DNA from: Robertmurraya sp. FSL R5-0851 | GTDB lineage: Bacteria > Bacillota > Bacilli > Bacillales > Cytobacillaceae | Assembly: GCF_038002965.1 (NCBI RefSeq) | Contig: NZ_JBBOOE010000002.1 | Span: forward strand, 310,001-374,000 | DNA length: 64,000 bases | Reading direction: 5' to 3' | Shown: piece after piece, positions 1-20,107 of the stretch | Numbering within the stretch: the first letter of the stretch is position 1 | Layout: each line of letters opens with the position of its first letter | Notes under the pieces: generated by a model | Databases searched by the model: none | Told to the model about the DNA's origin: nothing | Seen by the model: only the letters and a program-made list of their open reading frames with translations | Made by a program: the position numbers and the translations under genes

Positions 1-93
1 CATTTCAAATAAAGGGGAAATCTTACATTCCACCGTACAATTGCTATTAATAGTTGCTATGGTAAAAACAGCCATAAAATCACTAACTTTCAT
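1..93 (-). CDS. Unidentified gene start, runs off left edge
   Basis: Thirty-one open codons with a start but no stop, leaving the window at base 1. The ATG shares one base with the stop of the ATP-grasp gene upstream (TAATG), a typical sign of translational coupling, so it is probably the next gene of the same operon. The peptide begins MKVSDFMAVFTIATI and contains two cysteines three residues apart from a valine-glutamate pair. It is too short to assign to a family. It shows that the biosynthetic-looking operon continues beyond the window. Confidence 0.5.
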   Translation of the reverse strand, partial: MKVSDFMAVFTIATINSNCTVECKISPLFEM

Positions 94-4758: not shown

Positions 4759-4773
4759 TGTTTTGCACCTCAC

Positions 4774-5079: not shown

Positions 5080-5634
5080 ATGAAGGTAGGATATGCGCGC
5101 GTTTCCACAGGCATTCAAAATTTAGATTTACAACTAGATGCGCTTAAAGAACATGGCTGTGAAGAGATATTTACTGATAAGATCAGTGGTGCTAAAGATA
5201 AACGACAGGGATTAGAAGATGCTCTCCGTTTTGTTCGAACTGGTGATACTTTAGTGGTCTGGCGCTTGGATCGATTGGGAAGGAATATGCAACATCTTAT
5301 TAAGATTGTCAATGATCTCAATGATCAAGGCGTTAGTTTTCATAGCCTGCAAGAAAACATTACGATGGACAAGGCTAGCGCTACGGGACAGCTTATGTTT
5401 CATCTCTTTGCGGCTTTTGCCGAATTTGAGCGCAATCTTATTCACGAACGTTCGGCAGCTGGTCGTGCTGCAGCAAGAGCCAGAGGACGATTAGGAGGAA
5501 GACCGGAAAAGTTAGATAAGAAAGAATTAGAAATGTTAAAGACACTAGTGGCAAGTGGAACACCTATTACAGATATTGCTCAAATGTGGGGAGTTTCACG
5601 AACAACCGTTTATCGATACCTAGAAAAGAAATAA
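5080..5634 (+). CDS. tnpR: Tn3-family resolvase (serine recombinase)
   Basis: A 184-residue small serine recombinase that resolves transposition cointegrates at res. The catalytic domain begins MKVGYARVSTG with the nucleophilic serine at residue 9 and the arginine cluster VWRLDRLGRN; the long E-helix region and a C-terminal helix-turn-helix (TDIAQMWGVSRTTVYRYL) are complete. It is codirectional with the transposase ten bases downstream, the Tn21/Tn501-type order, which places any cargo on the far side of res, i.e. to the left. Confidence 0.93.
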   Translation: MKVGYARVSTGIQNLDLQLDALKEHGCEEIFTDKISGAKDKRQGLEDALRFVRTGDTLVVWRLDRLGRNMQHLIKIVNDLNDQGVSFHSLQENITMDKASATGQLMFHLFAAFAEFERNLIHERSAAGRAAARARGRLGGRPEKLDKKELEMLKTLVASGTPITDIAQMWGVSRTTVYRYLEKK

Positions 5635-5643
5635 ACTAAACTT

Positions 5644-8619
5644 ATGAAGGGACGGGAGGAAATGGCATCAAGGGGAAAGGAACTGCTTACAGCTGATCAA
5701 AGAGCAGAATTTGTAAGAATTCCGGCTGATATGACCGAACGGGAACTAGAAACCTACTATACTTTTTCTCAATATGACATGGAGATTATTAAAAGGCATA
5801 GAAGAGATCATAATCGTTTGGGATTTGCTGTCCAATTATGTGTACTGCGCTATCCCGGATGGTCTCTCACAGATGTTGAACCTATACCAGATTATGTAAT
5901 CCAATATATTGCTAAACAAATCAATGCTAATCCTGATTCTTTTTCTTTATATGCCCAACGTGACCCAACCAAGCATGAACATATGGAAGAGATTCGACAG
6001 GTATACGGATATCAGAATTTTTCTGTAAGTACATATCGGGAATTAGCTCAGTATCTTTTGAAGCATGCTCTTCAAAATGGTAATTCCATGTATCTGCTTC
6101 GAACTGTTCAAGAGGAACTTAGGAATCGAAAAATAATTCTTCCTGGAATGACTACAATAGAGAGGCTCGTGTGGGAAACCCGTCGTAGGGCAGAGGAAAA
6201 GATTTTTAAATCCTTAACCACCACTCTTTCATTGTGGCAAAAACATAAATTGGATCAACTTATAGATCCCTTTGTGGAAAGCAGGAAAACCCCATTAGCA
6301 TGGTTGAGAGAACTTCCCGGCCAATCATCACCTGATGCCTTTCTAAAAGTAATAGAGCGTTTAGAATATATTCGAGAGTTGAAACTGCCATTAAACATAA
6401 ATGAAGTTCATCCTAATCGATTACTTCAATTATCTCGCATTGGGGCTCGTTATGAACCCCATTCATTTCGTAGATTTAAAGACAATAAGAAATACGCCAT
6501 TCTTATAGCATATCTAGTAACATTAAGTCAGGATTTAATTGACCAAGCAATTGAAATTCATGATCGGCAAATGATGATTTTACAATCGAAAGGCCGTAAA
6601 ACCCAAGAGGAAATGCAAAGGGAAAATGGAAAAGCAGTTAATGAAAAAGTTGTTCATTTTGCAGATATTGGGGCTGCACTTATTCAAGCACGAGATGAAG
6701 GACTTGATCCATTTAGCACCATTGAAAAGGTAATGCCTTGGGATAAAATCGTTACTTCTGTTGAAGAGGCAAAAAAATTAGCTCGACCAATGGATTATGA
6801 TTACCTTGATTTGCTAGAGAATCGATTTACTTATCTGAGAAAGTATACCCCTACTCTTCTGAAATCATTAGAGTTTCGTTCTACAAAAGCAGCAGAACCA
6901 TTATTACGTGCATTAAAAACATTGAACGAAATGAATGAATCTGGAAAAAGAAAAGTACCAGATGAAGCTCCGTTAGATTTCGTTCCAAAACGATGGGAAA
7001 AGCATGTATACGATGAAGAAGGAACCATTAATCGGCATTATTATGAAATGGCTGCCCTTACAGAATTAAAAAATCATATTCGTTCAGGAGACGTATCTGT
7101 TGTCGGTAGTAGGCTCCATAAAGACTTTGAGGAGTACCTTGTTCCCAAAGATGAATGGACAACAACCAATCTAAAGGAAACTAGACTGGCGGTTCGTTCA
7201 TCAGCAGAGGAATATCTTGAAGAAAGAAGGAAGGCTCTAGCTGAACGCTTTACATGGATTTCAAATAATCTTGATAGTCTTGAAGGAGTAAATATAAAAA
7301 AAGCAAAACTTAGAGTGGATCGTTTGGAAAAGAATACCCCAGAAGATGCACGAACCTTCAGTTTATCCTTATATAATATGCTCCCAAGAATTAAGCTCAC
7401 TGATCTATTAATGGAGGTAGCGCACTGGACAGGATTTGACGAAATGTTAATACACGCTTCCACCAATCGCCCTCCGAAGGGAGAAGAAAAGGTCATTTTG
7501 ATGGCTGCACTTATGGCAATGGGAACAAATATTGGGTTGACTAAAATGGCAGATGCTACACCTGGAATTACTTATCACCAGATGGCCAATGCCGCACAAT
7601 GGCGATTGTATGATGATGCTATAAATCGAGCACAGGCAACTTTGGTAAATTTTCAACACAAACTTGCTCTAGCTTCTTATTGGGGAGATGGCTCTACATC
7701 TTCATCTGACGGAATGCGAGTACAAGTTGGTGTTTCATCGTTGCATGCGGAAGCAAATCCTCATTACGGTACCGGAAAGGGTGCAACTATTTATCGGTTT
7801 ACAAGTGATCAATTTTCTTCGTTTTATACGAAAGTCATTAATACCAATGCAAGAGATGCTGTCCATGTAATCGATGGGTTACTTCATCATGAAACAGAAT
7901 TAAATATTGAAGAGCATTTCACAGACACAGCTGGCTATACAGATTCAGTATTCGGATTAAGTCATTTGTTAGGTTTTCGTTTTGCGCCAAGGCTTCGTGA
8001 CTTAGCTGATTCCAAACTATACACAATTCAAAAGCCAAGTGATTTTCCTGACCTAGAAAAATTACTTCGTGGACGGATTAACACAAAGATTATTCAGGAA
8101 AACTTTGATGACGTACTCCGTTTAGCCCATTCGATTCGAGAAGGAAAAGTGTCTGGTTCGCTGATTATGGGGAAATTGGGGTCATATGCAAGACAAAACA
8201 AGTTAGCTACTGCCTTACGAGAAATGGGAAGAATCGAAAAGACTATTTTTATTTTAGATTACATATCTAATGAAGCTCTACGTAGGCGTATTCAACGAGG
8301 CTTAAATAAAGGAGAAGCTATGAATGGCTTGGCAAGAGCATTATTCTTTGGAAAACGAGGTGAATTACGAGAACGAGGACTGCAAGATCAACTTCAACGC
8401 GCAAGTGCTTTAAACATTATAATTAATGCCATTAGCGTATGGAATACCGTATACCTTACCGAAGCAACAAATTTGTTGAAGGAAAAAGGGGATTTGCGAG
8501 AATACTTGCTAAAACATATTTCACCCTTGGGATGGGAGCATATCAATTTTCTTGGTGAATACACCTTTGATATGAGGAAAATAGCTAGTTTAAATTCACT
8601 GCGTCCTCTTATTCAATAA
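5644..8619 (+). CDS. tnpA: Tn3-family transposase
   Basis: A full-length 991-residue Tn3 DDE transposase. The N-terminal DUF4158-like region (ADMTERELETYYTFSQYD, RHRRDHNRLGFAVQL) is followed by the long central DDE domain with SYWGDGSTSSSDGMRV, DGLLHHETELNIEEHFTDTAGYTD and RGLNKGEAMNGLARALFFGKRGE, and it ends LNSLRPLIQ. The start at 5644 has only a weak ribosome binding site; an in-frame ATG at 5662 lies close behind GGGAGGAA. The gene looks intact, so together with tnpR it could be active if the left terminal repeat exists outside the window. Confidence 0.95.
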   Translation: MKGREEMASRGKELLTADQRAEFVRIPADMTERELETYYTFSQYDMEIIKRHRRDHNRLGFAVQLCVLRYPGWSLTDVEPIPDYVIQYIAKQINANPDSFSLYAQRDPTKHEHMEEIRQVYGYQNFSVSTYRELAQYLLKHALQNGNSMYLLRTVQEELRNRKIILPGMTTIERLVWETRRRAEEKIFKSLTTTLSLWQKHKLDQLIDPFVESRKTPLAWLRELPGQSSPDAFLKVIERLEYIRELKLPLNINEVHPNRLLQLSRIGARYEPHSFRRFKDNKKYAILIAYLVTLSQDLIDQAIEIHDRQMMILQSKGRKTQEEMQRENGKAVNEKVVHFADIGAALIQARDEGLDPFSTIEKVMPWDKIVTSVEEAKKLARPMDYDYLDLLENRFTYLRKYTPTLLKSLEFRSTKAAEPLLRALKTLNEMNESGKRKVPDEAPLDFVPKRWEKHVYDEEGTINRHYYEMAALTELKNHIRSGDVSVVGSRLHKDFEEYLVPKDEWTTTNLKETRLAVRSSAEEYLEERRKALAERFTWISNNLDSLEGVNIKKAKLRVDRLEKNTPEDARTFSLSLYNMLPRIKLTDLLMEVAHWTGFDEMLIHASTNRPPKGEEKVILMAALMAMGTNIGLTKMADATPGITYHQMANAAQWRLYDDAINRAQATLVNFQHKLALASYWGDGSTSSSDGMRVQVGVSSLHAEANPHYGTGKGATIYRFTSDQFSSFYTKVINTNARDAVHVIDGLLHHETELNIEEHFTDTAGYTDSVFGLSHLLGFRFAPRLRDLADSKLYTIQKPSDFPDLEKLLRGRINTKIIQENFDDVLRLAHSIREGKVSGSLIMGKLGSYARQNKLATALREMGRIEKTIFILDYISNEALRRRIQRGLNKGEAMNGLARALFFGKRGELRERGLQDQLQRASALNIIINAISVWNTVYLTEATNLLKEKGDLREYLLKHISPLGWEHINFLGEYTFDMRKIASLNSLRPLIQ

Positions 8620-8624
8620 AATTA

Positions 8625-8664
8625 AAGCCGATATTTCTTTAGCGTAGGAAAAATCGGCTTTTTT
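8625..8664 (+). terminator. Terminator behind tnpA
   Basis: Stem AAGCCGAT / ATCGGCTT with a 20-base loop followed by a T run, just after the tnpA stop and inside the transposon. The same structure recurs at the relic Tn3 end near 30240. Confidence 0.75.
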
Positions 8665-8995
8665 CATGTCGAAATTTGCTTAGCGTATGTTTTGCGCTTT
8701 TTGTTGGTAGGACCCCTTCTTGTAGTTTTACAATTTGCTTTTTAAGATCCGAAATTTCTTCTAGTAATCTCTCAATCTTAGTTTGATCATCAATGCCTTC
8801 CTCAAAGGCTGTACCTTCCCATCTGTATGCTTCTATAAATCTATAAACCTCTTCCTCCAAAACTTCGTATACTCCACCGTTTTCAATGCTTTTAATATTC
8901 CCCTCACTTATCCAATGACTTACCAATTCTGTGTCACATTTGAAACCATACGAGTGTAACACGGCTGTTGTTTCTTTTAGGTTGAACGTATTCAT
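8639..8995 (-). pseudogene. Small HTH protein, 3' end replaced by Tn3 end
   Basis: The first 92 residues (8717-8995) look native: a helix-turn-helix-like N-terminus (LKETTAVLHSYGFKCDTELVSHW) followed by a short acidic coiled coil (KIERLLEEISDLKKQIVKLQE). From base 8716 the frame runs into the Tn3 terminal repeat, which encodes the remaining 26 residues (VLPTKSAKHTLSKFRHEK...). The natural C-terminus is therefore lost and a transposon-encoded tail added. AGGAGG lies 11 bases before the ATG. The precise family is not recognised; similar small HTH proteins are common on Bacillus mobile DNA. Confidence 0.55.
8679..8716 (+). repeat. Tn3 38-bp terminal inverted repeat (right)
   Basis: Read inward from 8716 it begins GGGGTCCTACCAACAAAAAG and ends ACGCTAAG, the size and GGGG start expected of a Tn3-family end. 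An identical 38-bp copy in the same orientation lies at 30294-30331. Confidence 0.85.
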
Positions 8996-9155
8996 GATTG
9001 TTGAATCCTCCTGATTTAATGATGTTTTTTCAAGCCTTTGCTGCTTATTAAGGGGACCATCAAATCCTTAAGTCAGCCCCTTAAACATAAGCCTTCTTAA
9101 TTTACTATAAATACTATAAAACTGAATACAGTTATCTAGGATTTAAAGAAACAAA

Positions 9156-9199
9156 AAAACGGATGACTTTACATTGAATACTGTAAAGTCATCCGTTTT
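9156..9199. terminator. Perfect 17-bp hairpin
   Basis: AAAACGGATGACTTTAC pairs with its exact complement across a ten-base loop, with A and T runs on both sides. It could be a bidirectional terminator or a remnant of an element end. Confidence 0.55.
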
Positions 9200-9246
9200 G
9201 GCTGGTTAAGATAATTCCGTTTTGCTGTCTGTACCCCTTATATGAA

Positions 9247-9411
9247 ATGTTGCCAAGAATAAAGCTTACAGACTTATTATTAGAAGTGGCCAGTTGGACA
9301 GGATTTCATGAACAATTTATACATGCTTCTAGCAATAAATTGCCTAACACCGAGGAGAAAAACATTTTGCTATCGGCACTTATACTCAATATGAACACAT
9401 TACAAAAATAA
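9247..9411 (+). pseudogene. Relic fragment of a second Tn3 transposase
   Basis: Fifty-four codons beginning MLPRIKLTDLLLEVASWTG match an internal segment of the intact TnpA in this window (MLPRIKLTDLLMEVAHWTG, followed by HAS-N--P--EEK-IL-AAL). The match stops in LSALILNMNTLQK and a stop codon. It is a stranded internal piece of a related but different transposase, so an older Tn3 element once occupied this spot. Confidence 0.8.
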
Positions 9412-9438
9412 AAAGGCCCTAATTAAAATTAGGACCTT
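9405..9438 (-). terminator. Terminator of the toxin transcript
   Basis: Read on the minus strand: stem AAGGTCCTAATT / AATTAGGGCCTT, then TTTATTTTT. It lies downstream of the PemK gene and its two structured repeats, so these would share one transcript. Confidence 0.6.
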
Positions 9439-9450
9439 CTGTGCGTATAG

Positions 9451-9498
9451 CTTGAAAAAGCTTCCGTAGGAAGCCGGTGCCGTAAAGGCTTGATAAAC
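9451..9498 (-). repeat. Structured repeat, copy 1
   Basis: On the minus strand this reads ATCAAGCC, a short loop, GGCACCGGCTTCC, TAC, GGAAGCTTTTTCAAG. It contains two potential small hairpins, GCC/GGC and GGCTTCC/GGAAGC. Copy 2 at 9585-9628 has the same frame with compensated stems. Confidence 0.5.
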
Positions 9499-9584
9499 TA
9501 TACATTCTAATATATGCAAAAGTTAAAATTAGATACATAAATGGTGAAAGAGCCACCAGATCACAAAGATGCTAATGACTCTTT

Positions 9585-9628
9585 CTTGAAAAGCTTATTT
9601 AAGCCGGTGCCCATCGGGCTTGATAACG
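9585..9628 (-). repeat. Structured repeat, copy 2
   Basis: On the minus strand this reads ATCAAGCCC, GAT, GGGCACCGGCTT, AAAT, AAGCTTTTCAAG. The stems are changed relative to copy 1 but still pair (GCCC/GGGC and GCTT/AAGC), which suggests a conserved RNA fold rather than a plain DNA repeat. It lies between the toxin stop and copy 1. Confidence 0.5.
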
Positions 9629-9677
9629 TTCATTTCTTACCTTGATAATACACTAATACCAAGAAAAAATCAAGCTT

Positions 9678-10139
9678 TTAGTTGGTAATACCTAATTGTG
9701 CTTTAACCATTTCAATTACTTCATCTAGTTTGTCATCTTTTAATTTGCCTATCCTTCGTTCCAACCTGGCCTTGTCTAACGTCATAATATCAGCTCCGAT
9801 GATTTTCGATGGGTCTTTATCTAAATTTCCATCTTCAAGGTCAGCGTTTGTTAACTGGATATTGTTTTTGGGATCGATTTTTTTACCATCACCCTCAATG
9901 GGTACCACATTCACTTTCTCAGAATATAGGTTTTTCTTTTTATTCGAGATAATAACACACAAGTGATTCCCGTTTAATTCAGTCCCGACGTTATCTTCAG
10001 AGATGAGAACATTATAAATCTCCCCTCTTACAGGGCGCGTTGGATGCAGTTTTTTCTTATCTGCCTTTTTTAAAACAGCATGGTCGTATGATTTTTGATC
10101 CAAACGGCACTTTTCGGGAATGGAATTGATGATAATCAA
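9678..10139 (-). CDS. PemK/MazF-family toxin
   Basis: A 153-residue protein with the PemK/MazF core: a 38-residue extension, then TRPVRGEIYNVLISED, NHLCVIISNKKKNLYSEKVNVVPIEG and IIGADIMTLDKARLERRIGKL. The family consists of sequence-specific endoribonucleases that arrest growth when free of antitoxin. The TTG start at 10139 overlaps the stop of a 34-codon ORF (TTGA), which implies coupling. No classic MazE/PemI-like antitoxin is adjacent; the short ORF upstream is the only protein candidate. Confidence 0.75.
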   Translation of the reverse strand: MIIINSIPEKCRLDQKSYDHAVLKKADKKKLHPTRPVRGEIYNVLISEDNVGTELNGNHLCVIISNKKKNLYSEKVNVVPIEGDGKKIDPKNNIQLTNADLEDGNLDKDPSKIIGADIMTLDKARLERRIGKLKDDKLDEVIEMVKAQLGITN

Positions 10140-10240
10140 AGCTTTTCTGAAGTTTTTTTATGAAGTGTTGAAAGCTTGTCTAATAATATGTCTTTCAACC
10201 GGTTCTTCTGAGAATCATTTAATTTATCTGTAGTGGTCAT
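10136..10240 (-). CDS. 34-residue ORF coupled to the PemK toxin
   Basis: A short ORF, MTTTDKLNDSQKNRLKDILL followed by a lysine-rich tail ending TSEKL. It is preceded by GGGGGAAACTATTC and overlaps the toxin start by two bases. It is mostly helical in character and highly charged, as expected for an antitoxin tail that wraps a MazF dimer, but it is shorter than known antitoxins and lacks a visible DNA-binding domain. It could be a minimal or truncated antitoxin. Function is inferred from position only. Confidence 0.5.
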   Translation of the reverse strand: MTTTDKLNDSQKNRLKDILLDKLSTLHKKTSEKL

Positions 10241-10329
10241 GAATAGTTTCCCCCTTAATTAACGATTATAAACCATATATCATTTTTTATGATAAGGTTT
10301 TTTAATCAATTCGAAATTGATTCGAAATT

Positions 10330-10493
10330 GAGGGAGAAATATGGTTATCAAAGGCATCTAAGGCACTGCCTACAGGTTTACGTCCTACCAGCAAAAAGAC
10401 GAAAAAATCTGCTAAGGTTGGAAATCCTGAGTTATTCCCTTTAAAGCTTTTAGTATTTCTAGAACATATTGTACAACTCAATAGCTATGTATA
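10330..10493 (+). other. Possible protein-coding remnant
   Basis: An open frame without a clear start runs through IWLSKASKALPTGLRPTSKK, continues KTKKSAKVGNPELFPLKL and overlaps the 3' end of the LysE-type gene on the other strand. Its composition looks protein-like, but no family is recognised. It is probably a remnant. Confidence 0.2.
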
Positions 10494-11076
10494 AAGCTAC
10501 TCCCCATATAATTATTGCAGATACTTTGTTTAGCAGTTTTAATAGCTTTCCTTCTGTATCAAAGTTACCTACTACTTTTCCGGCTATTGCAAGACCTAGA
10601 AACCAAAGCCAAGAGACGACAATACATGCGACAGTAAATCCTACTTTTTCTGTACCCGTATAGCTAAGTGAACTAGTTCCAATCACACCAATCGTATCAA
10701 GAATTGCATGGGGATTAAGAAGGGACACTGACATAGCAAACAAAATCTGTTTCTTAGGCGACATGGCTACTTCTTGTTGATTCAGGTTTGCAGGATCACT
10801 ATTCCAAATAGACCACCCCATATAAAGAAGAAATAATAGCCCTATAGAAAAGATGACTGTTTGCAGAACAGGAACAGATAATACGATAACAGATACCCCT
10901 AATACTGCTAATAAAATGAGTAAAGTATCACAAAGTGAAGCTGTAATTACAACTGGGATGGCTCCTCTAAATTTTGGTTGAGAAGCCCCCTGATTGAATA
11001 CAAATACATTCTGTGCCCCAAGGGGAAGTATTAGCCCAAAGGCTAATACTATTCCGTGAATTAGTGCTGCTAACAT
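10459..11076 (-). CDS. LysE/ArgO-family amino acid exporter
   Basis: A 205-residue LysE-type membrane protein with six hydrophobic segments and the family signature LILPLGAQNVFVFNQGA near residue 20, plus NPHAILDTIGVIG in the middle. Members export basic or other amino acids. It is the last gene of the BacA-like operon, 26 bases after the desaturase, with GGGGGAAAAC before its ATG. In this setting an exporter for the unusual amino acid product is a reasonable inference. The IS4 element inserted upstream may reduce its expression. Confidence 0.85.
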   Translation of the reverse strand: MLAALIHGIVLAFGLILPLGAQNVFVFNQGASQPKFRGAIPVVITASLCDTLLILLAVLGVSVIVLSVPVLQTVIFSIGLLFLLYMGWSIWNSDPANLNQQEVAMSPKKQILFAMSVSLLNPHAILDTIGVIGTSSLSYTGTEKVGFTVACIVVSWLWFLGLAIAGKVVGNFDTEGKLLKLLNKVSAIIIWGVALYIAIELYNMF

Positions 11077-11102
11077 AATGTTTTCCCCCTTCGCTTAAAC
11101 AA

Positions 11103-11345
11103 TTAGCTTATTTTCTTTTTATGTCTATCTAGGTAACGGCCACATATATCTTCTACCACGCTATAAAAGCCAGGTAGGAATGATCTAAAGAAGCCTGTAC
11201 AATGGTGTGCTTCCTTATATGCTGGGTCCTCCATTAAAATTAAATGAGCCTTTTTCAAATTATAATGGGGGATCGCTGGAAACAAATGATGTACTAAGTG
11301 ATAGTTGTCATGATGTGGATGTAAAAAGAATTTTTCTACTGGATT
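11103..11345 (-). pseudogene. Desaturase/hydroxylase, C-terminal fragment
   Basis: The C-terminal piece of a membrane di-iron desaturase-family protein. It begins at the target duplication (NPVEKFFLHPHH) and carries the third histidine box HHDNYHLVHHLFP. It joins in frame to the N-terminal piece at 12749 once the IS4 element and one copy of the 9-bp duplication are removed. The gene is split and presumably inactive. Confidence 0.85.
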
Positions 11346-12748
11346 CACAAGTGTTGCATAAATAATTTCGTAATTTTCAGTTTAATTATATTCTCTATTT
11401 AGAGCCAAAAAAGTAAATACCCAACAAAGGTGGCTCCATCCATTTGGAAATTTATTTACAATTAGACCTGTGTGACGACGACAACTTTCTTATCAAGGAA
11501 TGGCTTTTCCTTCAATTTTTCGGAGCCAAATATGGGCTGGTTTCCAAAGGGCAGCCCGTAGATAACGGCTAATTTTTAAGGTTTTTCGCTTACTATTTGT
11601 CTCAAGTTGAACAAGAACATGTAGGCAAAAAACGATAAGTGCGATAAACACTTGATTTTGAATGGCCCATTCGCTTTGTCCGTAGAACTTTTTGATGCTA
11701 AGGTGCTGTTTGATCCATTTAAAAAACAACTCAATGGCCCACCTTGATTTATACATCTCTGAAATTTCTTCAGCGTTCAAATCAAAGCGATTGGTGATTA
11801 AATGGAGTTCATTTCCTTTGGAATCAAGCACTTTTAGAAGGCGAAAGTAATTTTCAGCACGGTTTTGGGTTGTACCAATCAGGACCATTTGATCTGATAA
11901 AACAGCGGAATCCTCGGGTAGTTTAAAATCATAAACCTCCCGTATAACGGCGTTTTTTCTTAGCCTTGATAGAAAAAAGTAACCATCATCTGTCATGCGA
12001 TCAAAGCGCTCGTAGTCTAGATAGCCACGGTCAAACACATACATGCATTCCTTGTCATCGACCATGATTTCAAGTTGACCACGATCATGTTCGTTTGCCG
12101 TTGTTATGACTGCTTTTTCGGGATAGGACGCACCTTTTTCCATAAACACAAGGCGTAGATGCAACTTCACACCGGCTTTTGTCTTACGGAACTTTGCCCA
12201 TTTATGATTGGTCAAATTAAGTGGCAATGTGCTTGAATCAATGATTTTTAACGGCATGACCAGTTTCGTATAGTGTGTCTTGGCATGAATTTGTACGACC
12301 AAATCAAGGAAAAGCCTTTGAAATAGATCTGGGTTCATGCCATTTAATCGCCGTGACAGCTGAGAAATACTGATCGAATCAAGGTCAATCCCTTTTTGAA
12401 GTTGGTCATCGAATAGACAATCACCTAGCGCATGCAGGCTTTCGATTTCTTCTAGCTGGGCAAAAAGTAGTAATTTTAGGAAAGACTCTGTCGTTAATTT
12501 TTTCGTATAGTAATCTAATTTCATCGTTTTCACCTGTTCTTCAAATAATTGAATATTAATTGGTGAAAACCATTGTCCAAATGAAGTTTTTCGTGTAATC
12601 TTGTCCATGAGATGTGTCCTTTTTAGTGGATTTGGACGGGTTACCACCTGACTTATCCATTATAAAGGACTTTTTCTTTGCACAATATAATAAAGTTGAA
12701 CATTTTGAGTATTTTTAATAGTGAAATTAAATTAATGCAACACTAGTG
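11346..12748 (-). mobile_element. IS4-family element 1, with 9-bp target duplication
   Basis: The ends CACAAGTGTTGCATAAAT and (reverse) CACTAGTGTTGCATTAAT form the terminal inverted repeats. TACTGGATT is duplicated at 11337-11345 and 12749-12757. The element is 1403 bp, encodes one transposase, and interrupts the desaturase gene. Its termini resemble those of the second IS4-family copy at 59660. Confidence 0.92.
11493..12608 (-). CDS. IS4-family transposase
   Basis: A DDE transposase of about 371 residues. The Y-(2)-R-(3)-E-(6)-K signature of the IS4 family is in MYKSRWAIELFFKWIKQHLS; catalytic aspartates are in KIIDSSTLPL and YVFDRGYLDYERF. An AAGGA eight bases upstream selects the ATG at 12608 (MDKITRKT). 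The reading frame is intact and the ends and duplication are clean, so the insertion is probably recent. Confidence 0.9.
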   Translation of the reverse strand: MDKITRKTSFGQWFSPINIQLFEEQVKTMKLDYYTKKLTTESFLKLLLFAQLEEIESLHALGDCLFDDQLQKGIDLDSISISQLSRRLNGMNPDLFQRLFLDLVVQIHAKTHYTKLVMPLKIIDSSTLPLNLTNHKWAKFRKTKAGVKLHLRLVFMEKGASYPEKAVITTANEHDRGQLEIMVDDKECMYVFDRGYLDYERFDRMTDDGYFFLSRLRKNAVIREVYDFKLPEDSAVLSDQMVLIGTTQNRAENYFRLLKVLDSKGNELHLITNRFDLNAEEISEMYKSRWAIELFFKWIKQHLSIKKFYGQSEWAIQNQVFIALIVFCLHVLVQLETNSKRKTLKISRYLRAALWKPAHIWLRKIEGKAIP

Positions 12749-13510
12749 TACTGGATTACCAAAAGTATTTCTACTTGCGAATAGTTCATTTTCATTTTTT
12801 AAACCTGAATGCTCCGCCATTTCTGCCCAATATCTTATAATTTGAAATGTGGATAGAAGAGGAACAAACCAGAAAAGAATTAATTCCTGCCAAAAGTTGA
12901 AAGTAACACTAATTGTAATAATTGACAACCAATATAAAACTTTAGCAACTCTTTCTGACCAAGGCTCTTCTTTTGAAAAGATATTTACTTTAATTGTGCC
13001 ATAAATATATTTTGGAACATGTGTTAATGTAAGTGGTTTTATAATATGTTTCATTATAAATCTGTTTATATTATTTTGTGGTTTGTCCAATCCAATTAGG
13101 GCATATCTTTTAGTATCAGGATCATTTTCTATATCCCATAGGTGCCTATGGTGTAAATAGTGCGAATTGCAGTAAGTAGTATAGGATGTAAATACAGGAA
13201 ATGCAGCAAACAGGCAAGCTATCCATTTATTCAAAATACGATTTTTAAATAACAACAAATGGCTTGCTTCATGCATTAAGTTGTCGAAAGCTCTCATTCT
13301 ACTCCCTATAATAGCTATGCTAATGATATAGGTCCACCAGTCAGGAAATGTTTTAGCAAAGACAATTGCACATGTAATAATAGCCCAATCATAGCCAATA
13401 GAAAAGAAATTATACCAATTATTCCTCTTATGTAGCTCCTTAGTTCTTGAACGTATTTCTGCAGAGAACTTTGCCTTTTTAATCTTATGTTTATCCGTGT
13501 TTGTTTGCAT
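12749..13510 (-). pseudogene. Desaturase/hydroxylase, N-terminal fragment
   Basis: The N-terminal 250 or so residues of an integral-membrane di-iron desaturase/hydroxylase, with histidine boxes HEASH (in DNLMHEASHLLLF) and HYLHHRH, and several hydrophobic segments. The family inserts double bonds or hydroxyl groups using O2. AGGAGG eight bases upstream fixes the ATG at 13510. The frame ends in the IS4 end (FGNPVH, stop). The restored protein would be about 330 residues. In an amino acid operon it could hydroxylate or desaturate an intermediate rather than a fatty acid. Confidence 0.85.
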
Positions 13511-13540
13511 ACTTCTATCCTCCTGCCGCAATATAAAACT

Positions 13541-14644
13541 CTATTTTTCAATCATTTCCGACATCTGAAGTAATTGTGACAAATGTGCAATTAGATCATC
13601 GTTTTGTGCTGAGCTACCTATCGTAATTCTTACACTAGTTGGGCATGCAAACTCACTACCTGGACGAATAATAAATCCTTTAGATAATAAACGATTTGCT
13701 AAACTATCTGTGTCTCTTTTCATATCAATAAATATAAAATTAGTCTGGGTTGGAAAATAAGAGAGTCCAAATCTCCAACAAAATGAATAGAATTGTTGCA
13801 GTTCCCTTCGATTTTTCTCGTGACACTCTTTAATAAAGGATTGATCTTCAAAAGCTGCGACAGCAGCCACTTGGGCTAAACGAGAAGTATTAAATGTTTC
13901 CCTCACTGTTTCTAAAACATTAATTACTTCCGTTTTACAAATACCATAACCAATACGAAGTGCTGCTAGACCATAAGCTTTCGAAAAAGTTCGCAAAATC
14001 ATTAAATTAGGATACTTATTCATTATAGATACTGTATCCGGGAAATCGTCTGCATCTACGTATTCGTAATACGCTTCATCACAGACTACAAGGATGTCTT
14101 TGTTGAGCTCATCTAAAAGTGTTATGAGCTCATTTTTACGAACATACTCACCTGTAGGATTATTAGGATTACAAATCCAAACGACCGTTGTCTTTTTATC
14201 AGTCGCATCGATCATTCCCATAATATTGTGACGACCATTTACATGGGGAACCTCTCGGACCTCTGCCCCCTCTATAATCGCATTTCGTTTATATTGAGAA
14301 AAAGTCAAATCTGACATCACTGTGTTTGTATCCGATCCTAAGTAAGCTCTACATATCATCCGAATCAATTCATCAGTTCCATTTCCAAATATAAACTGAT
14401 CTTCATTCACTCCAATAGAATCAGCAAGTTTTTCTCTTAATCTATCTGCCCGACTGTCTGGATAAAAGGATAGTTTGTTGAGCTCAGACATAATTGACTT
14501 TTGAACGTAATGAGAACAACCATATGGATTTTCATTGGAAGCAAGTTTCACTACATGATTAAGACCATAAGTACGTTTAACTTCTTCAATTGTTTTTCCT
14601 GGATGATAGGGTGTTATTGTCGAAAGTTGTTTTTTAGGTTTCAT
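13541..14644 (-). CDS. HisC-type aminotransferase
   Basis: A class I/II PLP aminotransferase of 367 residues, of the histidinol-phosphate aminotransferase type: KLASNENPYG, WICNPNNPTGEY, CDEAYYEY and the PLP lysine in RTFSKAYGLAALRIGYG (about residue 222). AGGAGG eight bases upstream sets the ATG at 14644. No other histidine gene is nearby. Because HisC enzymes of Bacillus also act on aromatic keto acids, and the operon starts with a prephenate decarboxylase, its likely role is to aminate the resulting cyclohexadienyl-pyruvate-type keto acid, comparable to BacF in bacilysin synthesis. Substrate is inferred. Confidence 0.85.
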   Translation of the reverse strand: MKPKKQLSTITPYHPGKTIEEVKRTYGLNHVVKLASNENPYGCSHYVQKSIMSELNKLSFYPDSRADRLREKLADSIGVNEDQFIFGNGTDELIRMICRAYLGSDTNTVMSDLTFSQYKRNAIIEGAEVREVPHVNGRHNIMGMIDATDKKTTVVWICNPNNPTGEYVRKNELITLLDELNKDILVVCDEAYYEYVDADDFPDTVSIMNKYPNLMILRTFSKAYGLAALRIGYGICKTEVINVLETVRETFNTSRLAQVAAVAAFEDQSFIKECHEKNRRELQQFYSFCWRFGLSYFPTQTNFIFIDMKRDTDSLANRLLSKGFIIRPGSEFACPTSVRITIGSSAQNDDLIAHLSQLLQMSEMIEK

Positions 14645-14687
14645 ATTAAACACCTCCTATAGAATTATAATAATGTTTTATCCAATA

Positions 14688-16007
14688 TCATTTCGCAGAA
14701 GAGAATTTAGCCTCATTCTCTTTTATTCTTATCCTATCAGTTTCTTTAATTGACTTAGTACGAATTAAATAGATAGCAAATCCGATTGACAACCATATCA
14801 ATCCTGAAAAGAAACCGGACCCTCCAACTGGAACGAGTAAACAAATGCTAATAATTAAGGCAAGGGCTGGTAAAAAAGGATACATAGGGACTGAAAACTG
14901 ATTTGCTCTTTCTTCAACAGATACTTTTCTCCTCGAAATAAAAAAGGCAATCATCGTAAAAATAAACGTAAGGAGATACAAAAAGCCAGTTGCATTAACG
15001 GCAATATTGATTGAACTTACAAGGGTAAACATAATTTGTATGCTAACCCCTAACAATATTGCCAAAACTGGAGTCTGAAATCGAGGATGGATAAATCCAA
15101 ATTTTTTCGGTAATAATCCATTACGACCCATCGCAAAGGCAGTTCTCGAAATCGATATGATAAAAGCATTGGCTGTTGCTGGTAAAGCTATAACAATCAC
15201 TATACTGACTAAGGTCGGTCCAAAATCCCCTAAAAATTGTTGGCTAGCTAAAGCGACTGGTACTTTTGATAAACCAAGTTCCTGCCAAGGAACAACTCCT
15301 GTTGAAACAAATAATAGTCCCGAGTACAGAACAAGTACAATGATAATGGATGATAAAATGGCTTTTGGAATGGTTTTACTCGGATTTTTCATTTCCTCTC
15401 CAGCATCCACAATTACATCCCAGCCAACCATGGAAAGAAAACCAACCAATGCGGCAGCAAGTATTCCTTCATAGCCATTAGGGGCAAACGGTGTATATAA
15501 TGAATAATTCACATGACCAAAACCTAGAGCAAAAAATAAAATAAGTACGATAATTTCAACAACTACAATTCCCACTTGAACGACACCACTAAACTTTATT
15601 CCAAGCATATTTAGAAATCCTAAAACAAGAAGAAGAATGATCGCACTCAGTAACGGAGGGGCACCCGTTAAAGAATGAAGATAATTCCCAAATCCTTGGG
15701 AAACGAAACTACTTGCTGCAAGCCATGCCCCCCAGTATGACCATCCAATTAGAGTTCCAACAAATGATCCCATTGTTTGACTAACATATTCATAGGCACC
15801 ACCTGCCCTAGGGTATCTTGATGCTAGTTCTGCATAACATAATCCAAGTAAAATCTCTAAGATTGCTGCAATGACAAAAGCAAGCATCACAGCTGGGCCT
15901 GCTTTTCCAGTTGCTACACCACTTAGAATAAAAATACCAGCACCTACCATAGCTCCAGTTCCTAGAGAAGTAGCTTCTTTCCACCCTAAATCTCTTTTTA
16001 GGCTCAT
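14688..16007 (-). CDS. APC-family amino acid permease
   Basis: An amino acid/polyamine/organocation permease of about 440 residues with twelve membrane segments and the family start LGTGAMVGAGIFILSG. AAAAGGGGT places the ATG at 16007 (MSLKRDLGWKEATSL), not the upstream 16028. It lies within the BacA-like operon, so it probably takes up a precursor or exchanges product. Substrate is unknown. Confidence 0.88.
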   Translation of the reverse strand: MSLKRDLGWKEATSLGTGAMVGAGIFILSGVATGKAGPAVMLAFVIAAILEILLGLCYAELASRYPRAGGAYEYVSQTMGSFVGTLIGWSYWGAWLAASSFVSQGFGNYLHSLTGAPPLLSAIILLLVLGFLNMLGIKFSGVVQVGIVVVEIIVLILFFALGFGHVNYSLYTPFAPNGYEGILAAALVGFLSMVGWDVIVDAGEEMKNPSKTIPKAILSSIIIVLVLYSGLLFVSTGVVPWQELGLSKVPVALASQQFLGDFGPTLVSIVIVIALPATANAFIISISRTAFAMGRNGLLPKKFGFIHPRFQTPVLAILLGVSIQIMFTLVSSINIAVNATGFLYLLTFIFTMIAFFISRRKVSVEERANQFSVPMYPFLPALALIISICLLVPVGGSGFFSGLIWLSIGFAIYLIRTKSIKETDRIRIKENEAKFSSAK

Positions 16008-16033
16008 AAAAATACCCCTTTTCATCAATTAAA

Positions 16034-16672
16034 CTAAAATTCCGTGACTTCACCTGGTTTTTCTATAAAACCCCATTTTTTCAAATCTGCAATCCAGTAT
16101 TTTTTAGGCCTAACTATACCATTGATATCGTATCCCGCACGTCGTTCCCATTCCCCAATTTGATATTCTTCTGTTACTTCCAATTTTGCTAAACCTTTTA
16201 CATTTTTGTATCCGTACAGCCCAAAATCGAATAATCTTAATGGATATCCTTGTTCCATTGGTAAAGGTTCCCCATCAACCGTATGAACAATCAATGCTCG
16301 TCTGGAAAGAGCATCACCTAAAGGAATAGTTGATTCATATACACCTTTTTCCTTAGTTCCTATACTAGTTTGCTTTAAATAGTATTTTTCAGGATTAGTT
16401 ACTCCAGCCATTTCTATAACGCTGGATAACAAAATTCCCTTCCATGGACGGCGAATACTCCAATTACAGACACAAACCATTCTTCTACTTTCCTCTACTT
16501 GTTGCATTTCTAATAAATCTTGATAGGTAAAAGTTAATTCTTTTTCTACCAATCCAGTAACAGATAGATGCCAAGTATCTAAATCAATAGATTTAGGTGG
16601 ACCTTCTTGATAATACCGAAGCGAAGATGGCTTTCGGTCTAAATTTGGAGTCTTAAGCATTGGGTAATTCAC
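16034..16672 (-). CDS. Molybdopterin-dependent oxidoreductase (sulfite-oxidase fold)
   Basis: A 212-residue stand-alone oxidoreductase molybdopterin-binding domain, the sulfite-oxidase/YedY superfamily core. The cysteine expected to ligate molybdenum is in RRMVCVCNWS; ALIVHTVDGEPLPMEQGYPLRL and GYKNVKGLAKLEV are typical later motifs. There is no signal peptide, no heme domain and no dimerization domain, so it is a compact cytosolic form. The start is GTG at 16672 behind AAGGAGA. Co-occurrence with a BacA-like enzyme and a formylglycine-enzyme-like protein suggests a redox tailoring step; electron partner and substrate are unknown. Confidence 0.85.
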   Translation of the reverse strand: MNYPMLKTPNLDRKPSSLRYYQEGPPKSIDLDTWHLSVTGLVEKELTFTYQDLLEMQQVEESRRMVCVCNWSIRRPWKGILLSSVIEMAGVTNPEKYYLKQTSIGTKEKGVYESTIPLGDALSRRALIVHTVDGEPLPMEQGYPLRLFDFGLYGYKNVKGLAKLEVTEEYQIGEWERRAGYDINGIVRPKKYWIADLKKWGFIEKPGEVTEF

Positions 16673-16684
16673 ATTTCTCTCTCC

Positions 16685-17470
16685 TTAAATAGTATTGATA
16701 ACACAACGAAAACCAATTAAATTATCTCTAACTGAAACAGGATAGTTGTCTCTTGCTGTACATCTCATAAAATCTTCATTATGTAATCCGCATCCACCTC
16801 TAACAATGTGATAATCTTCTTGTGATGAAAGATATAATGGATTCATTCCTGTTTCATCCCATTTGTAATTAAGAGAAGCGTTATCTAAACACCATTCTGC
16901 TAAATTCCCTGCCATATCTAAACATCCGAAAAAAGATTTATTCTTAGGGAATGCAAAAACAGATGTCGAGCTACGATTTAATTCTTCAGGATTGCAATCA
17001 ACGGCATAGTTTGCATACTCAAAAGTAGGTTCGTCGTTTCCCCATGGATATTTTCTTTGATCTTTACCCTTACAAGCGTATTCCCATTGTGCTTCAGTCG
17101 GTAAGGTCTTTCCTGCAAACTCAGCAAAGGCCATTGCCTCCCACCAACTGACTCCTGTTACCGGATGATCATCTTGATTAAAGTGATCGTCATACCAATA
17201 ATTTGGGTATTTTATATTGTTATCATTGATATAATCCCACCCTTTTGGTGCCCAAAAGACCGGATTTCCATATCCTCCTTCTTCTACGAACACTCGAAAT
17301 TGTTGGTTTGTTACTGGTGTTTTATCAATAGCAAAATCATTTAAAGTAACCAACTTAACTGGCTGTTCATCTGGTGAATCGTTACTCCCTCGGAGAAACG
17401 TCCCACCTGGGATCACTATCATATTTTCTAACTGATTTTTCACTTGATTACTCACCATAGATTCCCCCAT
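16685..17470 (-). CDS. SUMF1/EgtB/PvdO-fold protein
   Basis: A 261-residue protein that is almost entirely the formylglycine-generating-enzyme fold: MIVIPGGTFLRGS, KTPVTNQQFRVFV, HPVTGVSWWEAMAFAEFAG, LPTEAQWEYACKG, DMAGNLAEWCLDN and IGFRCV. The two copper-binding cysteines of true formylglycine enzymes, normally in the segment after RGGS, are not at the usual places: RGGCGLHNEDFMRC has cysteines at about 227 and 237 instead. The DinB-like iron-binding N-terminus of EgtB is absent. It is therefore a variant, perhaps an oxygenase like PvdO. The ATG at 17470 overlaps the DUF2000 stop (TAATG); ATG 17458 behind GGGGGA is an alternative. Confidence 0.82.
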   Translation of the reverse strand: MGESMVSNQVKNQLENMIVIPGGTFLRGSNDSPDEQPVKLVTLNDFAIDKTPVTNQQFRVFVEEGGYGNPVFWAPKGWDYINDNNIKYPNYWYDDHFNQDDHPVTGVSWWEAMAFAEFAGKTLPTEAQWEYACKGKDQRKYPWGNDEPTFEYANYAVDCNPEELNRSSTSVFAFPKNKSFFGCLDMAGNLAEWCLDNASLNYKWDETGMNPLYLSSQEDYHIVRGGCGLHNEDFMRCTARDNYPVSVRDNLIGFRCVINTI

Positions 17471-17883
17471 TATCTTAGAAGTCCCATACTTCCAGTTAGT
17501 TTATTAACCTTTTTCTTGTCTCCACATAAAGCTAATCCTAAATACTCTAGATCATTTGCTGAGAATGTCGCTATTTTTTGGGTATATTCCTCATAATTTT
17601 TTGTTGTTTGTGCAGCATTACTAAAGTCAACAACAAGTAAATCGGAAAATTCTTCAGCATATACCTTATCTCTTAAATCCTTAATCTTTAGAGAATCACC
17701 CTTCAGAATAGGAATCGGAGTGGTAGTTATCCCTACATGAGAATGACCACTTCCATCTATTACAGTTGGCCCAATAATTCCATCTATTTTCTTTCCTAAA
17801 GTAAGGGCTAACACCGCAGCAGTATTTGCAATTAATCCTGTTGGTAAATCCGCATCAATAACCATTACACATTTCATTTCCAC
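17470..17883 (-). CDS. DUF2000 family protein
   Basis: A 137-residue DUF2000 protein: CVMVIDADLPTGLIANTAAV, IIGPTVIDGSGHSHVGITTTPI and the C-terminal LGLALCGDKKKVNKLTGSMG. DUF2000 shares the peptidyl-tRNA-hydrolase-2 fold, and its chemistry is unknown. The GTG at 17883 is seven bases after GGAGG and is preferred over a longer reading that overlaps the BacA-like gene. Its place directly after a BacA-like enzyme is unusual and suggests a pathway-specific role. Confidence 0.85.
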   Translation of the reverse strand: MEMKCVMVIDADLPTGLIANTAAVLALTLGKKIDGIIGPTVIDGSGHSHVGITTTPIPILKGDSLKIKDLRDKVYAEEFSDLLVVDFSNAAQTTKNYEEYTQKIATFSANDLEYLGLALCGDKKKVNKLTGSMGLLR

Positions 17884-17917
17884 GATTATTCCTCCATTTG
17901 TTAAGTTTGAATTAATA

Positions 17918-18544
17918 CTATCGTTGATTTCGGCCAAAAACGGACCATAACATTAAAATAGTTCGGGTAGGCGAAATGAATTCGATATTATATTTTTTGA
18001 CGGCATTTTCAGTCGTTAAACAAAGATCAACATCACCATTCTGCAATTTAACCGCAGCTTCACTTGTTGAATTAACAAGCAGCACTTCATAGTTCATGTC
18101 AAAATCAGCTAAGAACCAAGGAAGAAGACTTGAAGGTGCATGATGAGTTGCAATAATCAAAGGACGCCCCGTATCCAATTCTTCACATGGTCTTTTTGCA
18201 ACTCCATATAAAGGTGTTTCAAAGACAAATGGGAACAAAAATTTGATATCCTTTGACATGTAAAACTTATCTATTCCCTTGTAAGCATTCGCTACAAGAA
18301 GAACATTAGATACTCCCGAAACCAAGCTTTCATAAGCTTCTTCATAAGAAGGGAAAAGCGAATATTTTCCATGTTCTGCTTTTAGTGATGATAGCAAATA
18401 TTCAGCTGATGCTTCACTGCTGGTTCCAGAAGGACCTAGAGTAGCAATTTCAAGTTGATCTAAGAAAAATAAAGAAGAAAAAAGCCTATCATTCCAATTT
18501 GATAAACGATGATTTTGCTCTCTTACCTGAGATTTTACGGCCAT
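17918..18544 (-). CDS. BacA-like prephenate decarboxylase
   Basis: A 208-residue protein resembling BacA of bacilysin synthesis, which decarboxylates prephenate without aromatization to dihydro-4-hydroxyphenylpyruvate. From memory of BacA, shared features are LGPSGTSSE (residues 36-44), NAYKGIDKFYM, ETPLYGVAKRP, VNSTSEAAVKLQNGDVDL, the segment KYNIEFI, and a C-terminal WSVFGRN. The fold is that of prephenate dehydratase, but the catalytic threonine-type C-terminal ACT domain is absent and the length fits BacA (about 204) rather than PheA (about 285). The ATG follows AGGTGG by six bases. As first gene of the operon it probably commits prephenate to a non-aromatic amino acid pathway. Confidence 0.8.
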   Translation of the reverse strand: MAVKSQVREQNHRLSNWNDRLFSSLFFLDQLEIATLGPSGTSSEASAEYLLSSLKAEHGKYSLFPSYEEAYESLVSGVSNVLLVANAYKGIDKFYMSKDIKFLFPFVFETPLYGVAKRPCEELDTGRPLIIATHHAPSSLLPWFLADFDMNYEVLLVNSTSEAAVKLQNGDVDLCLTTENAVKKYNIEFISPTRTILMLWSVFGRNQR

Positions 18545-18637
18545 TTCACACCACCTGTATCGATTTGATTATTTACGTTGTATATTTCCAATATGTGTAA
18601 CTTCTTTCCCCTTTTATAATTTAGCATGGTAAAATGG

Positions 18638-18680
18638 TTGGTATAAGGACCAATTATTATAAAATTTTATAGGACCAATT
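18638..18680. promoter_or_regulatory. Direct repeats, probable MocR operator
   Basis: GGACCAATT occurs twice (18647-18655 and 18672-18680), 25 bases apart, and an inverted TTGGT (18638-18642) makes a dyad with the first copy. Direct repeats of this spacing between a MocR gene and its divergent target operon are typical operators for GabR-like regulators. Confidence 0.55.
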
Positions 18681-18706
18681 TGAAAACGAAAGCAAGGGTG
18701 AAGAGT

Positions 18707-20107
18707 ATGCTGTGGATATCAATTGATCGAACAATGGATATGCCTTTAATTAGACAAGTTTACGAACAAATTCGTATGCGTATATTACATGGGGAACTTT
18801 CAGCCGGGGAATGTCTTCCACCTTCCCGTGAATTAGCCTCAAGTCTAGGTATTTCACGAAATGTTGTAGTAGAAGCTTATGACCAATTATTAGCAGAAGG
18901 ATATATAGAAGGACGGCAAGGGTCAGGAACATATGTTGCTGAAGGAGCATACTTGGATCAACAGGAGAAAAAAGATTTTTTATCTTTTTTTGACATGCAT
19001 CAATTAAAAGAGGAAACAAACGACATTATTGATTTTCGTTCAGGTCTTCCTGCTTTAGATATGTTTCCAAGGAATACATGGGGACAAATCTCTAAACAAG
19101 TTTGTGCAGATACTTCTCATTCCATTTTTGGTTATGGCTATCCTGAAGGGAGAATTGAACTACGTCATATCCTTTCTCGCTACCTTAAAAGAACAAGGGG
19201 GGTTCATTGCCATCCAGACCAATTAGTTATTACCTCCGGAGCAACACAAGCTTTATCTCTTATAGCTAATCTATTTCTTTCCCCTGGGGATGAAGTAATG
19301 ATTGAAGATCCTATTACTCATGAAATTCAAACAATTTTTACTTCTCCAGGCTCAACACTCTATCCTATACCTGTGGATGAACAAGGAATGAGAACAGATT
19401 TAATTCCACTAGATAAAAAACCTAGTTTTATTTTTGTCACACCGTCACATCAGTTTCCACTTGGAGGGACTTTGCCTATTCAACGCCGGATTCAACTTAT
19501 TCAATTTGCTCGAAAAGCTAATTGCTATATTGTAGAAGATGATTATGACAGCGAATTTCGTTATCAAGGTGCTCCCATTAATTCACTTCAAGGGCTTGAT
19601 CCAGATAGAGTGGTTTACATAGGAACTTTTAGCAAGATATTGTCACCAGCGCTTAGATTAGGTTACTTAATTCTTCCGCCTTCTTTAACAAAACGATGTA
19701 AAGATTTAAAATGGTTCACAGATCTTCACACCCCCTCATTAGAACAACTTACTATTGCACGCTTTATAGATGAAAGACATTTGGAGCGCCATATTAGAAA
19801 AATGAAAAAAATTTATAAAGCACGACGGGATCAGGTGAAAAAATGTTTAACAGAAGAGTTTGGTAATAAGGTGAAAATTTTAGGGGATTCAACAGGCCTG
19901 CATTTGATTGCTGAATTTAAAAACATAGAGTTTACAGATCAAAAAGTAAAAAGCATAATGGAACGACATAAAATTAATATTTATCCAGTCGAACTTCATA
20001 CCATTAAAAAGGAAATGCATCAAAATAAAATAATTTTAGGTTATGGAAATTTAACAATAGAGGAAATAAAAGAAGGTATCAATAGACTAAAACAAGCTCT
20101 AATTTAA
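18707..20107 (+). CDS. MocR/GabR-type regulator (GntR HTH plus aminotransferase domain)
   Basis: A regulator of 466 residues from the ATG at 18707, preceded by AAGGGTG. The N-terminal GntR winged helix (LPPSRELASSLGISRNVVVEAYDQLLAEGYIEGRQGSGTYV region) is joined to a fold-type I aminotransferase-like domain with VITSGATQAL, VEDDYDSEFRY and the PLP lysine in GTFSKILSP. MocR proteins bind PLP and an amino compound to switch divergent operons. It faces the BacA-like operon across 162 bases containing direct repeats, so it is the obvious regulator, probably sensing a pathway amino acid. Confidence 0.9.
   Translation: MLWISIDRTMDMPLIRQVYEQIRMRILHGELSAGECLPPSRELASSLGISRNVVVEAYDQLLAEGYIEGRQGSGTYVAEGAYLDQQEKKDFLSFFDMHQLKEETNDIIDFRSGLPALDMFPRNTWGQISKQVCADTSHSIFGYGYPEGRIELRHILSRYLKRTRGVHCHPDQLVITSGATQALSLIANLFLSPGDEVMIEDPITHEIQTIFTSPGSTLYPIPVDEQGMRTDLIPLDKKPSFIFVTPSHQFPLGGTLPIQRRIQLIQFARKANCYIVEDDYDSEFRYQGAPINSLQGLDPDRVVYIGTFSKILSPALRLGYLILPPSLTKRCKDLKWFTDLHTPSLEQLTIARFIDERHLERHIRKMKKIYKARRDQVKKCLTEEFGNKVKILGDSTGLHLIAEFKNIEFTDQKVKSIMERHKINIYPVELHTIKKEMHQNKIILGYGNLTIEEIKEGINRLKQALI

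Follow-up and report, generated by a model that had tools for sequence, protein, structure and literature searches.

What would a bacterium make with an operon that is headed by a homologue of the bacilysin protein BacA and continues with a DUF2000 protein, a protein of the formylglycine-generating enzyme (FGE) fold and a stand-alone molybdopterin domain? Such an operon was found on the minus strand of a stretch of 64,000 nucleotides from Robertmurraya sp. FSL R5-0851 (assembly GCF_038002965.1, contig NZ_JBBOOE010000002.1, positions 310,001 to 374,000), which is called the window here and in which its coordinates are given. In our study, clusters containing BacA, DUF2000, the FGE-fold protein (SUMF) and the molybdopterin domain (Moco) appeared, by sequence comparison, to be a third class of BacA cluster. 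We predict, at just short of an even chance, that a cluster of this class turns prephenate into a non-aromatic amino acid, which is likely exported. The four core genes of the window are as follows.

17918..18544, minus strand: BacA homologue of 208 residues, predicted prephenate decarboxylase (motifs, tree)
17470..17937, minus strand: DUF2000 protein with the fold of peptidyl-tRNA hydrolase 2 (Pth2) (PF09391, E 7e-46; structure model, fold matches)
16685..17470, minus strand: FGE/SUMF-fold protein, SUMF, of 261 residues (PF03781, E 8e-62)
16034..16672, minus strand: stand-alone sulfite-oxidase-type molybdopterin domain, Moco, of 212 residues (PF00174 Oxidored_molyb, E 2.5e-33)

Conservation of the four-gene core

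The set of BacA loci was obtained from one scan of genome contigs, in which the best 80 of 129 relatives were kept. SUMF or Moco was present in nine of these 80 loci, one of which (L009) is a short contig from the window species. For the count of core loci, L089, L090, the locus of a Vibrio halioticoli plasmid (L095) and the window were added, and L009 and L091 (the same genome as L012) were dropped. BacA, DUF2000, SUMF, and Moco were all present in the resulting 12 loci, which belong to five phyla (six Bacillota, one Cyanobacteriota, one Actinomycetota, two Campylobacterota, and two Pseudomonadota). The core gene set is thus more than a chance grouping, and the neighbours that the earlier note had joined into one pathway were found to be conserved together in other genomes. 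The Scopulibacillus locus (L012) contained one frame change each in DUF2000 and Moco. No description of the core gene set was found in the titles and abstracts of the literature searched, which was confined to open-access papers.

Of the 12 loci, 11 have an amino-acid-type transporter next to the core. It was of the APC type in the six Bacillota, of the LysE type in Arcobacter, Sulfurovum, Solimicrobium and Vibrio, and of the EamA type in Amycolatopsis; no transporter was recognised beside the core of Baaleninema. The smallest operons contained only BacA, DUF2000, SUMF, Moco, and LysE. On the Vibrio halioticoli plasmid pIAM14596, these five genes and an AraC regulator were present in one run (6963-10842) that its record leaves unannotated. 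A search of 72,556 plasmid records found SUMF in one record at 54.8% identity and in another at 31% (E 1e-30), and Moco in a single record (E 1e-20), which is the one with the 54.8% SUMF and is the Vibrio plasmid with BacA. The Amycolatopsis cluster, alone among the 12, held a DAHP synthase II, a dedicated enzyme of shikimate entry. In L091, the duplicate entry of the Scopulibacillus genome, a PEP mutase-like gene was seen right after the class III operon (9798-10631).

The transporters bear on the direction in which the amino acid moves. It was considered whether the operon takes up an unusual amino acid made by other organisms and then detoxifies or salvages it. The APC permease of the six Bacillota loci fits this, as do the MocR regulator, the DUF2000 genes that adjoin LysE without BacA, and the patchy occurrence of the core, which was found twice on plasmids by the names given. 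However, prephenate, the substrate of BacA, arises inside the cell, one cluster carries its own DAHP synthase, and the only transporter of the smallest operons is of an exporter type. We regard uptake and salvage as improbable and continue with synthesis and export.

Three classes of BacA cluster

The 80 BacA loci were sorted into 17 with BacB (class I, the bacilysin and cyanobacterial type), 52 of class II (with Dabb, ligase or class IV aminotransferase, the Photorhabdus type), nine with SUMF or Moco (class III), and two others. The bacilysin pathway (BacA-BacB-BacC-BacD-BacE-BacF-BacG) resembles class III in having a BacA at the head of a compact operon and transporters; its aminotransferase has a counterpart in the window and some relatives. 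It differs in that class III carries DUF2000, SUMF, and Moco instead of BacB, BacC, and BacG, which gave no tblastn match at E 1e-6 in class III loci or the window. The sole relative of BacD was a ligase of a separate second operon in the window (24.6% identity), and no BacD-type ligase was found in the other class III loci.

The class II clusters of Photorhabdus, Pantoea, Streptomyces, and Salinispora contain Dabb, an acyl-CoA ligase-like protein, a class IV aminotransferase, OCD, and CMD. They share with class III the BacA, the DUF2000 in 32 of 52 loci, and in some cases the EamA or LysE exporters. In class III, SUMF-Moco stands in place of Dabb, ligase, class IV aminotransferase, and OCD, none of which had a match in class III loci or the window.

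The BacA tree contained 92 rows, and its midpoint root serves drawing only. The 18 class I rows formed one group (support 100/99), and 11 of the 12 class III rows lay inside one fork of 21 rows (support only 86/85, with L014 outside and long branches meeting). Class III was placed with class II, and class I was outside. The Amycolatopsis row was found among class II rows from actinobacteria, a position suggesting that SUMF and Moco moved as a pair between BacA types.

The BacA homologue

The window comes from a genome resembling Cytobacillus firmus, and its BacA homologue matches the one of C. firmus NBRC 15306 at 100% identity. It had no Pfam match at E ≤ 0.01, and its family was read from relatives, some of which carry PF00800. 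The motif TLGPxGTSSE was invariant in 24 aligned rows of the BacA family and W[S/T]xF was present in 83 of 83 rows. Close relatives are named 'bacilysin biosynthesis protein BacA' in the source records, which is annotation and not proof. The earlier note had called the protein BacA-like; a family tree has now been built, and it agrees with the motifs in supporting a place in the BacA family, with decarboxylase activity as a prediction. A grouping with amino-acid-binding or dehydratase proteins was not seen. Class II members presumably include tested decarboxylases.

Prephenate is reported to be decarboxylated by B. subtilis BacA without aromatisation (PMC9147277), and disruption of salX, which encodes a prephenate dehydratase homologue in Salinispora tropica, is reported to inactivate a cyclohexenyl amino acid route (PMC2866466). 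The Salinispora locus of our set is L064, and its identity with the salX cluster is not assumed.

By homology to true BacA of the B. subtilis group (36-40% identity), the window protein is predicted to have BacA activity. The same low identity, together with the lack of BacB, BacC, and BacG in the operon, led us to reject it as BacA proper. The TRF motif of prephenate dehydratase is catalytic. It is carried by the PheA of the same genome and not by the window homologue; it was missing from 81 of 83 BacA-family rows and present in two (L064, L067). An added alignment set TRT of the window protein opposite TRF of PheA, in a part where the alignment is unsure, so no clean loss of TRF is seen, and the loss of this dehydratase motif was withdrawn as evidence; this slightly lowers our estimate for the predicted pathway and raises that for another activity of the homologue.

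These values leave room for a different activity, in which the protein would bind or convert some other acid (for instance arogenate) rather than decarboxylate prephenate. The identity to true BacA and the ambiguous comparison with PheA would allow it, and no solved structure related to the homologue was found by sequence search. It is made quite unlikely, in our estimate, by the motifs TLGPxGTSSE and W[S/T]xF, which are common to the homologue, BacA and class II members, and by the tree, where class III goes with class II and class I stays outside. Decarboxylation of prephenate is therefore kept as the predicted first step.

SUMF and Moco

In SUMF, only PF03781 was found (residues 14-257 of 261), and the DinB-like iron-binding domain of EgtB/OvoA was not detected by Pfam. 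SUMF has the fold and profile of EgtB/OvoA and FGE; its best profile match and first Foldseek rows were EgtB sulfoxide synthases. In FGE, the cysteines of the motif GGSFLCHESYC bind copper. This motif of FGE 6s07 aligned with GGxGLHxED of SUMF, in which the two copper cysteines are missing. SUMF thus differs from EgtB/OvoA and FGE by the lack of both the DinB iron domain and the copper cysteines. Its GGxGLH, C194, and C256 were invariant in 38 aligned rows.

Moco resembles MsrP (YedY) and sulfite oxidase in its domain and in a conserved cysteine. All 10 aligned rows have C67, which lines up with the cysteine of RMRC in 1xdq, a bacterial sulfite oxidase (YedY/MsrP); we take this cysteine to be the molybdenum ligand. 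It differs from these enzymes in being a single domain of 212 residues, with no second domain found by Pfam, and in its fusion to SUMF in two Campylobacterota. In Sulfurovum and Arcobacter, SUMF and Moco form one open reading frame of 458-459 residues, and the fused proteins of the two genera are 70% identical to each other. In the structure model of the fusion, one part gave matches to EgtB/FGE and the other to sulfite dehydrogenase.

Because of these two fusions, SUMF and Moco likely work as one enzyme. The earlier note had read several oxidations into the FGE-fold and molybdenum proteins, for which a single enzyme is now the likelier explanation. By elimination, SUMF-Moco is likely the ring-modifying step, since the smallest operons hold nothing besides BacA, DUF2000, SUMF, Moco, and LysE. 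A fusion in Amycolatopsis (an open reading frame of 477 residues) was rejected; its SUMF (from 10673) and Moco (from 11446) are in different frames. Two fused proteins from metagenomes, P0113 and P0144, were left out of the count, as they resemble read-through in assembly.

The relationship with EgtB raises the further question of whether SUMF-Moco adds sulfur to a prephenate-derived skeleton, giving a sulfur amino acid. The EgtB matches of SUMF and the MsrP and sulfite oxidase matches of Moco are in line with this, and an unrelated metallopterin enzyme is reported to insert sulfur into trimethylhistidine (PMC9516567). However, the iron-binding domain of EgtB is missing from SUMF, and no cysteine desulfurase or C-S lyase was found among the core genes, the flanking genes having been examined in part. 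We consider a sulfur product very unlikely, and modification of the ring is preferred.

DUF2000

The structure model of the DUF2000 protein was found to have the fold of Pth2. It shares this fold with Pth2/Bit1 and differs by a sequence identity of 18-23% to the Pth2 fold matches, by the absence of an invariant lysine and by its own Pfam family; at E 0.01 it matched only the DUF2000 family and not Pth2. The word DUF2000 did not occur in the open-access literature searched. In at least six of the 17 loci read away from BacA, a LysE or EamA exporter was close to DUF2000. The vicinity of exporters without BacA suggests a protective role.

In every core locus but that of Amycolatopsis (11 of 12), DUF2000 immediately follows BacA; in Amycolatopsis it lies 3 kb upstream beside EamA. 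It was present in 43 and BacB in 17 of the 80 BacA loci, and the two were never found together. These two findings would suit a role in biosynthesis, in which DUF2000 would act on the product of BacA in place of the BacB isomerase and SUMF-Moco would make a later change. However, DUF2000 was not found in 20 of the 52 class II loci, Salinispora L064 among them, in counts that ignore ancestry and use short motifs, some of the loci without DUF2000 being short contigs (L034, L037). The exporters near DUF2000 in loci without BacA and the Pth2 fold also speak against it, as would the salX result cited above if L064 is that cluster, so that we hold such a role to be unlikely. The earlier note had listed DUF2000 in a pathway with several oxidations; from its fold, its absence from class II loci and its exporter neighbours, an accessory role, such as protection, is likelier than an oxidation step.

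Gene order and the insertion element

The remaining features of the run and its regulator are listed below.

14688..16028, minus strand: APC-family amino acid permease (PF13520, E 2e-55)
13541..14653, minus strand: HisC-type aminotransferase (TIGR01141, 348.8 bits, cut-off 276.55)
12749..13531, minus strand: GntB-like membrane hydroxylase, first part, with one copy of the 9-bp repeat
11346..12748: IS4-family element with 18-bp inverted ends, 16/18 matching
11493-12647, minus strand: IS4-family transposase gene (253.7 bits, cut-off 115)
11337..11345 and 12749-12757: target-site duplication, 9-bp direct repeat TACTGGATT, flanking both element ends
11103..11345, minus strand: GntB-like membrane hydroxylase, last part (Pfam match)
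10459..11076, minus strand: LysE/ArgO-type amino acid exporter (Pfam and NCBIfam profiles)
18680..20107, plus strand: MocR/PdxR-type regulator, divergent, start codon uncertain (profiles)
18545..18707: divergent control region with an ACCAATT direct repeat at 18649 and 18674

The gaps from the BacA homologue to HisC were -20, -1, 12, 5, and 34 bases, and that from HisC to the hydroxylase was nine bases. From the candidate starts inspected, DUF2000 probably begins at GTG 17883 or ATG 17877 rather than TTG 17937. The two copies of the ACCAATT repeat are 25 bases apart, and ACCA[A/C]TT was kept in six of six aligned Bacillota loci. The genome contains a second HisC-type aminotransferase on contig C1, with 51% identity to the operon copy.

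The tight minus-strand run opposite MocR, as first described, was confirmed from the BacA homologue through HisC. A single tightly spaced operon reaching LysE is not present, because the IS4-family element of 1.4 kb splits the hydroxylase gene. The first part (12743-13531) covers profile positions 2-193 of 253 and the last part (11103-11348) positions 204-248, so that the supposed membrane di-iron desaturase/hydroxylase is not intact but consists of two fragments around a transposase gene. The best NCBIfam match of the first part was GntB (186.6 bits, below the cut-off of 380, for a fragment of a broken gene), a model that NCBIfam names L-arginine gamma-hydroxylase. From GntB the window fragment differs in this score and in its adjacent LysE. 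GntB is described as a transmembrane enzyme of guanitoxin synthesis (PMC10367076).

The hydroxylase and LysE also lie side by side on plasmid SAP105A of S. epidermidis, with identities of 60.8% and 61.5%, and in another genome from the order of the window, where LysE is 95% identical and the hydroxylase is shortened and 90-96% identical; no BacA was present in the stretches read around these pairs. No hydroxylase or LysE of the window type was found in the other loci compared, Bacillota core relatives included, the Metabacillus contig ending inside HisC. The pair is therefore a cassette separate from the BacA core, and the hydroxylase was rejected as a core step. On SAP105A (L132, 3258-6088), the pair adjoins a MocR-like gene, with similarity running on in two frames.

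Proposed pathway

From these comparisons we infer the following steps. The BacA homologue would decarboxylate prephenate, SUMF-Moco, likely as one enzyme, would alter the product, the aminotransferase would complete the amino acid, and the transporters would carry it out of the cell. The likely role of DUF2000 would be to keep the product from harming translation, for example by hydrolysing mischarged tRNA, and the MocR regulator would likely control the operon through the ACCAATT direct repeat. The hydroxylase would be an addition, broken by the insertion element in the window strain. A wider proposal is that SUMF-Moco is a new two-part molybdenum enzyme that rebuilds the non-aromatic ring of BacA's product, and that DUF2000 is a Pth2-fold self-protection family which clears the exported analogue from tRNA and travels with LysE/EamA; this we consider doubtful.

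Several findings weigh against the predicted pathway, apart from the identity and TRF values of the BacA homologue, the limits of the class II counts and the support of the class III fork given above. APC permeases usually import, so that salvage is conceivable. Pth2 needs a lysine, and no lysine was invariant in 29 DUF2000 rows, with K22 nearly so; the position of the Pth2 catalytic lysine is our assumption and not taken from an alignment with DUF2000. A wider motif set for non-ribosomal peptide and polyketide synthases separated the class II loci with and without DUF2000 poorly (7/32 vs 8/20). The model of the fused SUMF-Moco had a pTM of 0.54 and a pLDDT of 76.8, which leave the arrangement of its parts open. 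The window operon is itself damaged by the IS4-family insertion, and P0076, a SUMF protein of 99% identity from a cluster with a longest contig of 4.76 Mb, is truncated to 186 residues. The pathway may therefore be failing in the window species. The SUMF gene of C. firmus NBRC 15306 leaves its contig (L009, 3559) where P0076 turns into unrelated sequence; a second, separate SUMF disruption is probable in C. firmus NBRC 15306/P0076. No such damage was found in the stretches read of the B. aquiflavi-like L090, Vibrio, and Arcobacter.

If the prediction is true, unusual amino acids would be reached from prephenate by a third route, and the enzyme pair of this route would include a SUMF without the metal sites that define FGE and EgtB. 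DUF2000 would gain its first functional handle, as a partner of BacA pathways and amino acid exporters. With four or five genes, the operons of Vibrio, Arcobacter, and Sulfurovum are small enough for direct testing.

Neighbouring genes

The second operon of the window (93-4773, minus strand) contained two ATP-grasp L-amino-acid ligases (LAL_C2), an MFS transporter, and a GntG-family pyridoxal phosphate-dependent aldolase (311.6 bits, cut-off 230). It lies 5.7 kb from the BacA operon and may belong to a dipeptide pathway. In the Bacillota core relatives, no match to its ligases was found at 1e-8. The class II clusters L019 (Nonomuraea) and L058 (Sphaerisporangium) contained an ATP-grasp ligase that is 28-29% related to the second ligase of the window. 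A Tn3-family resolvase and transposase were found between the two operons (5080-8619), and a PemK/MazF-type toxin gene adjoins LysE (9678-10139).

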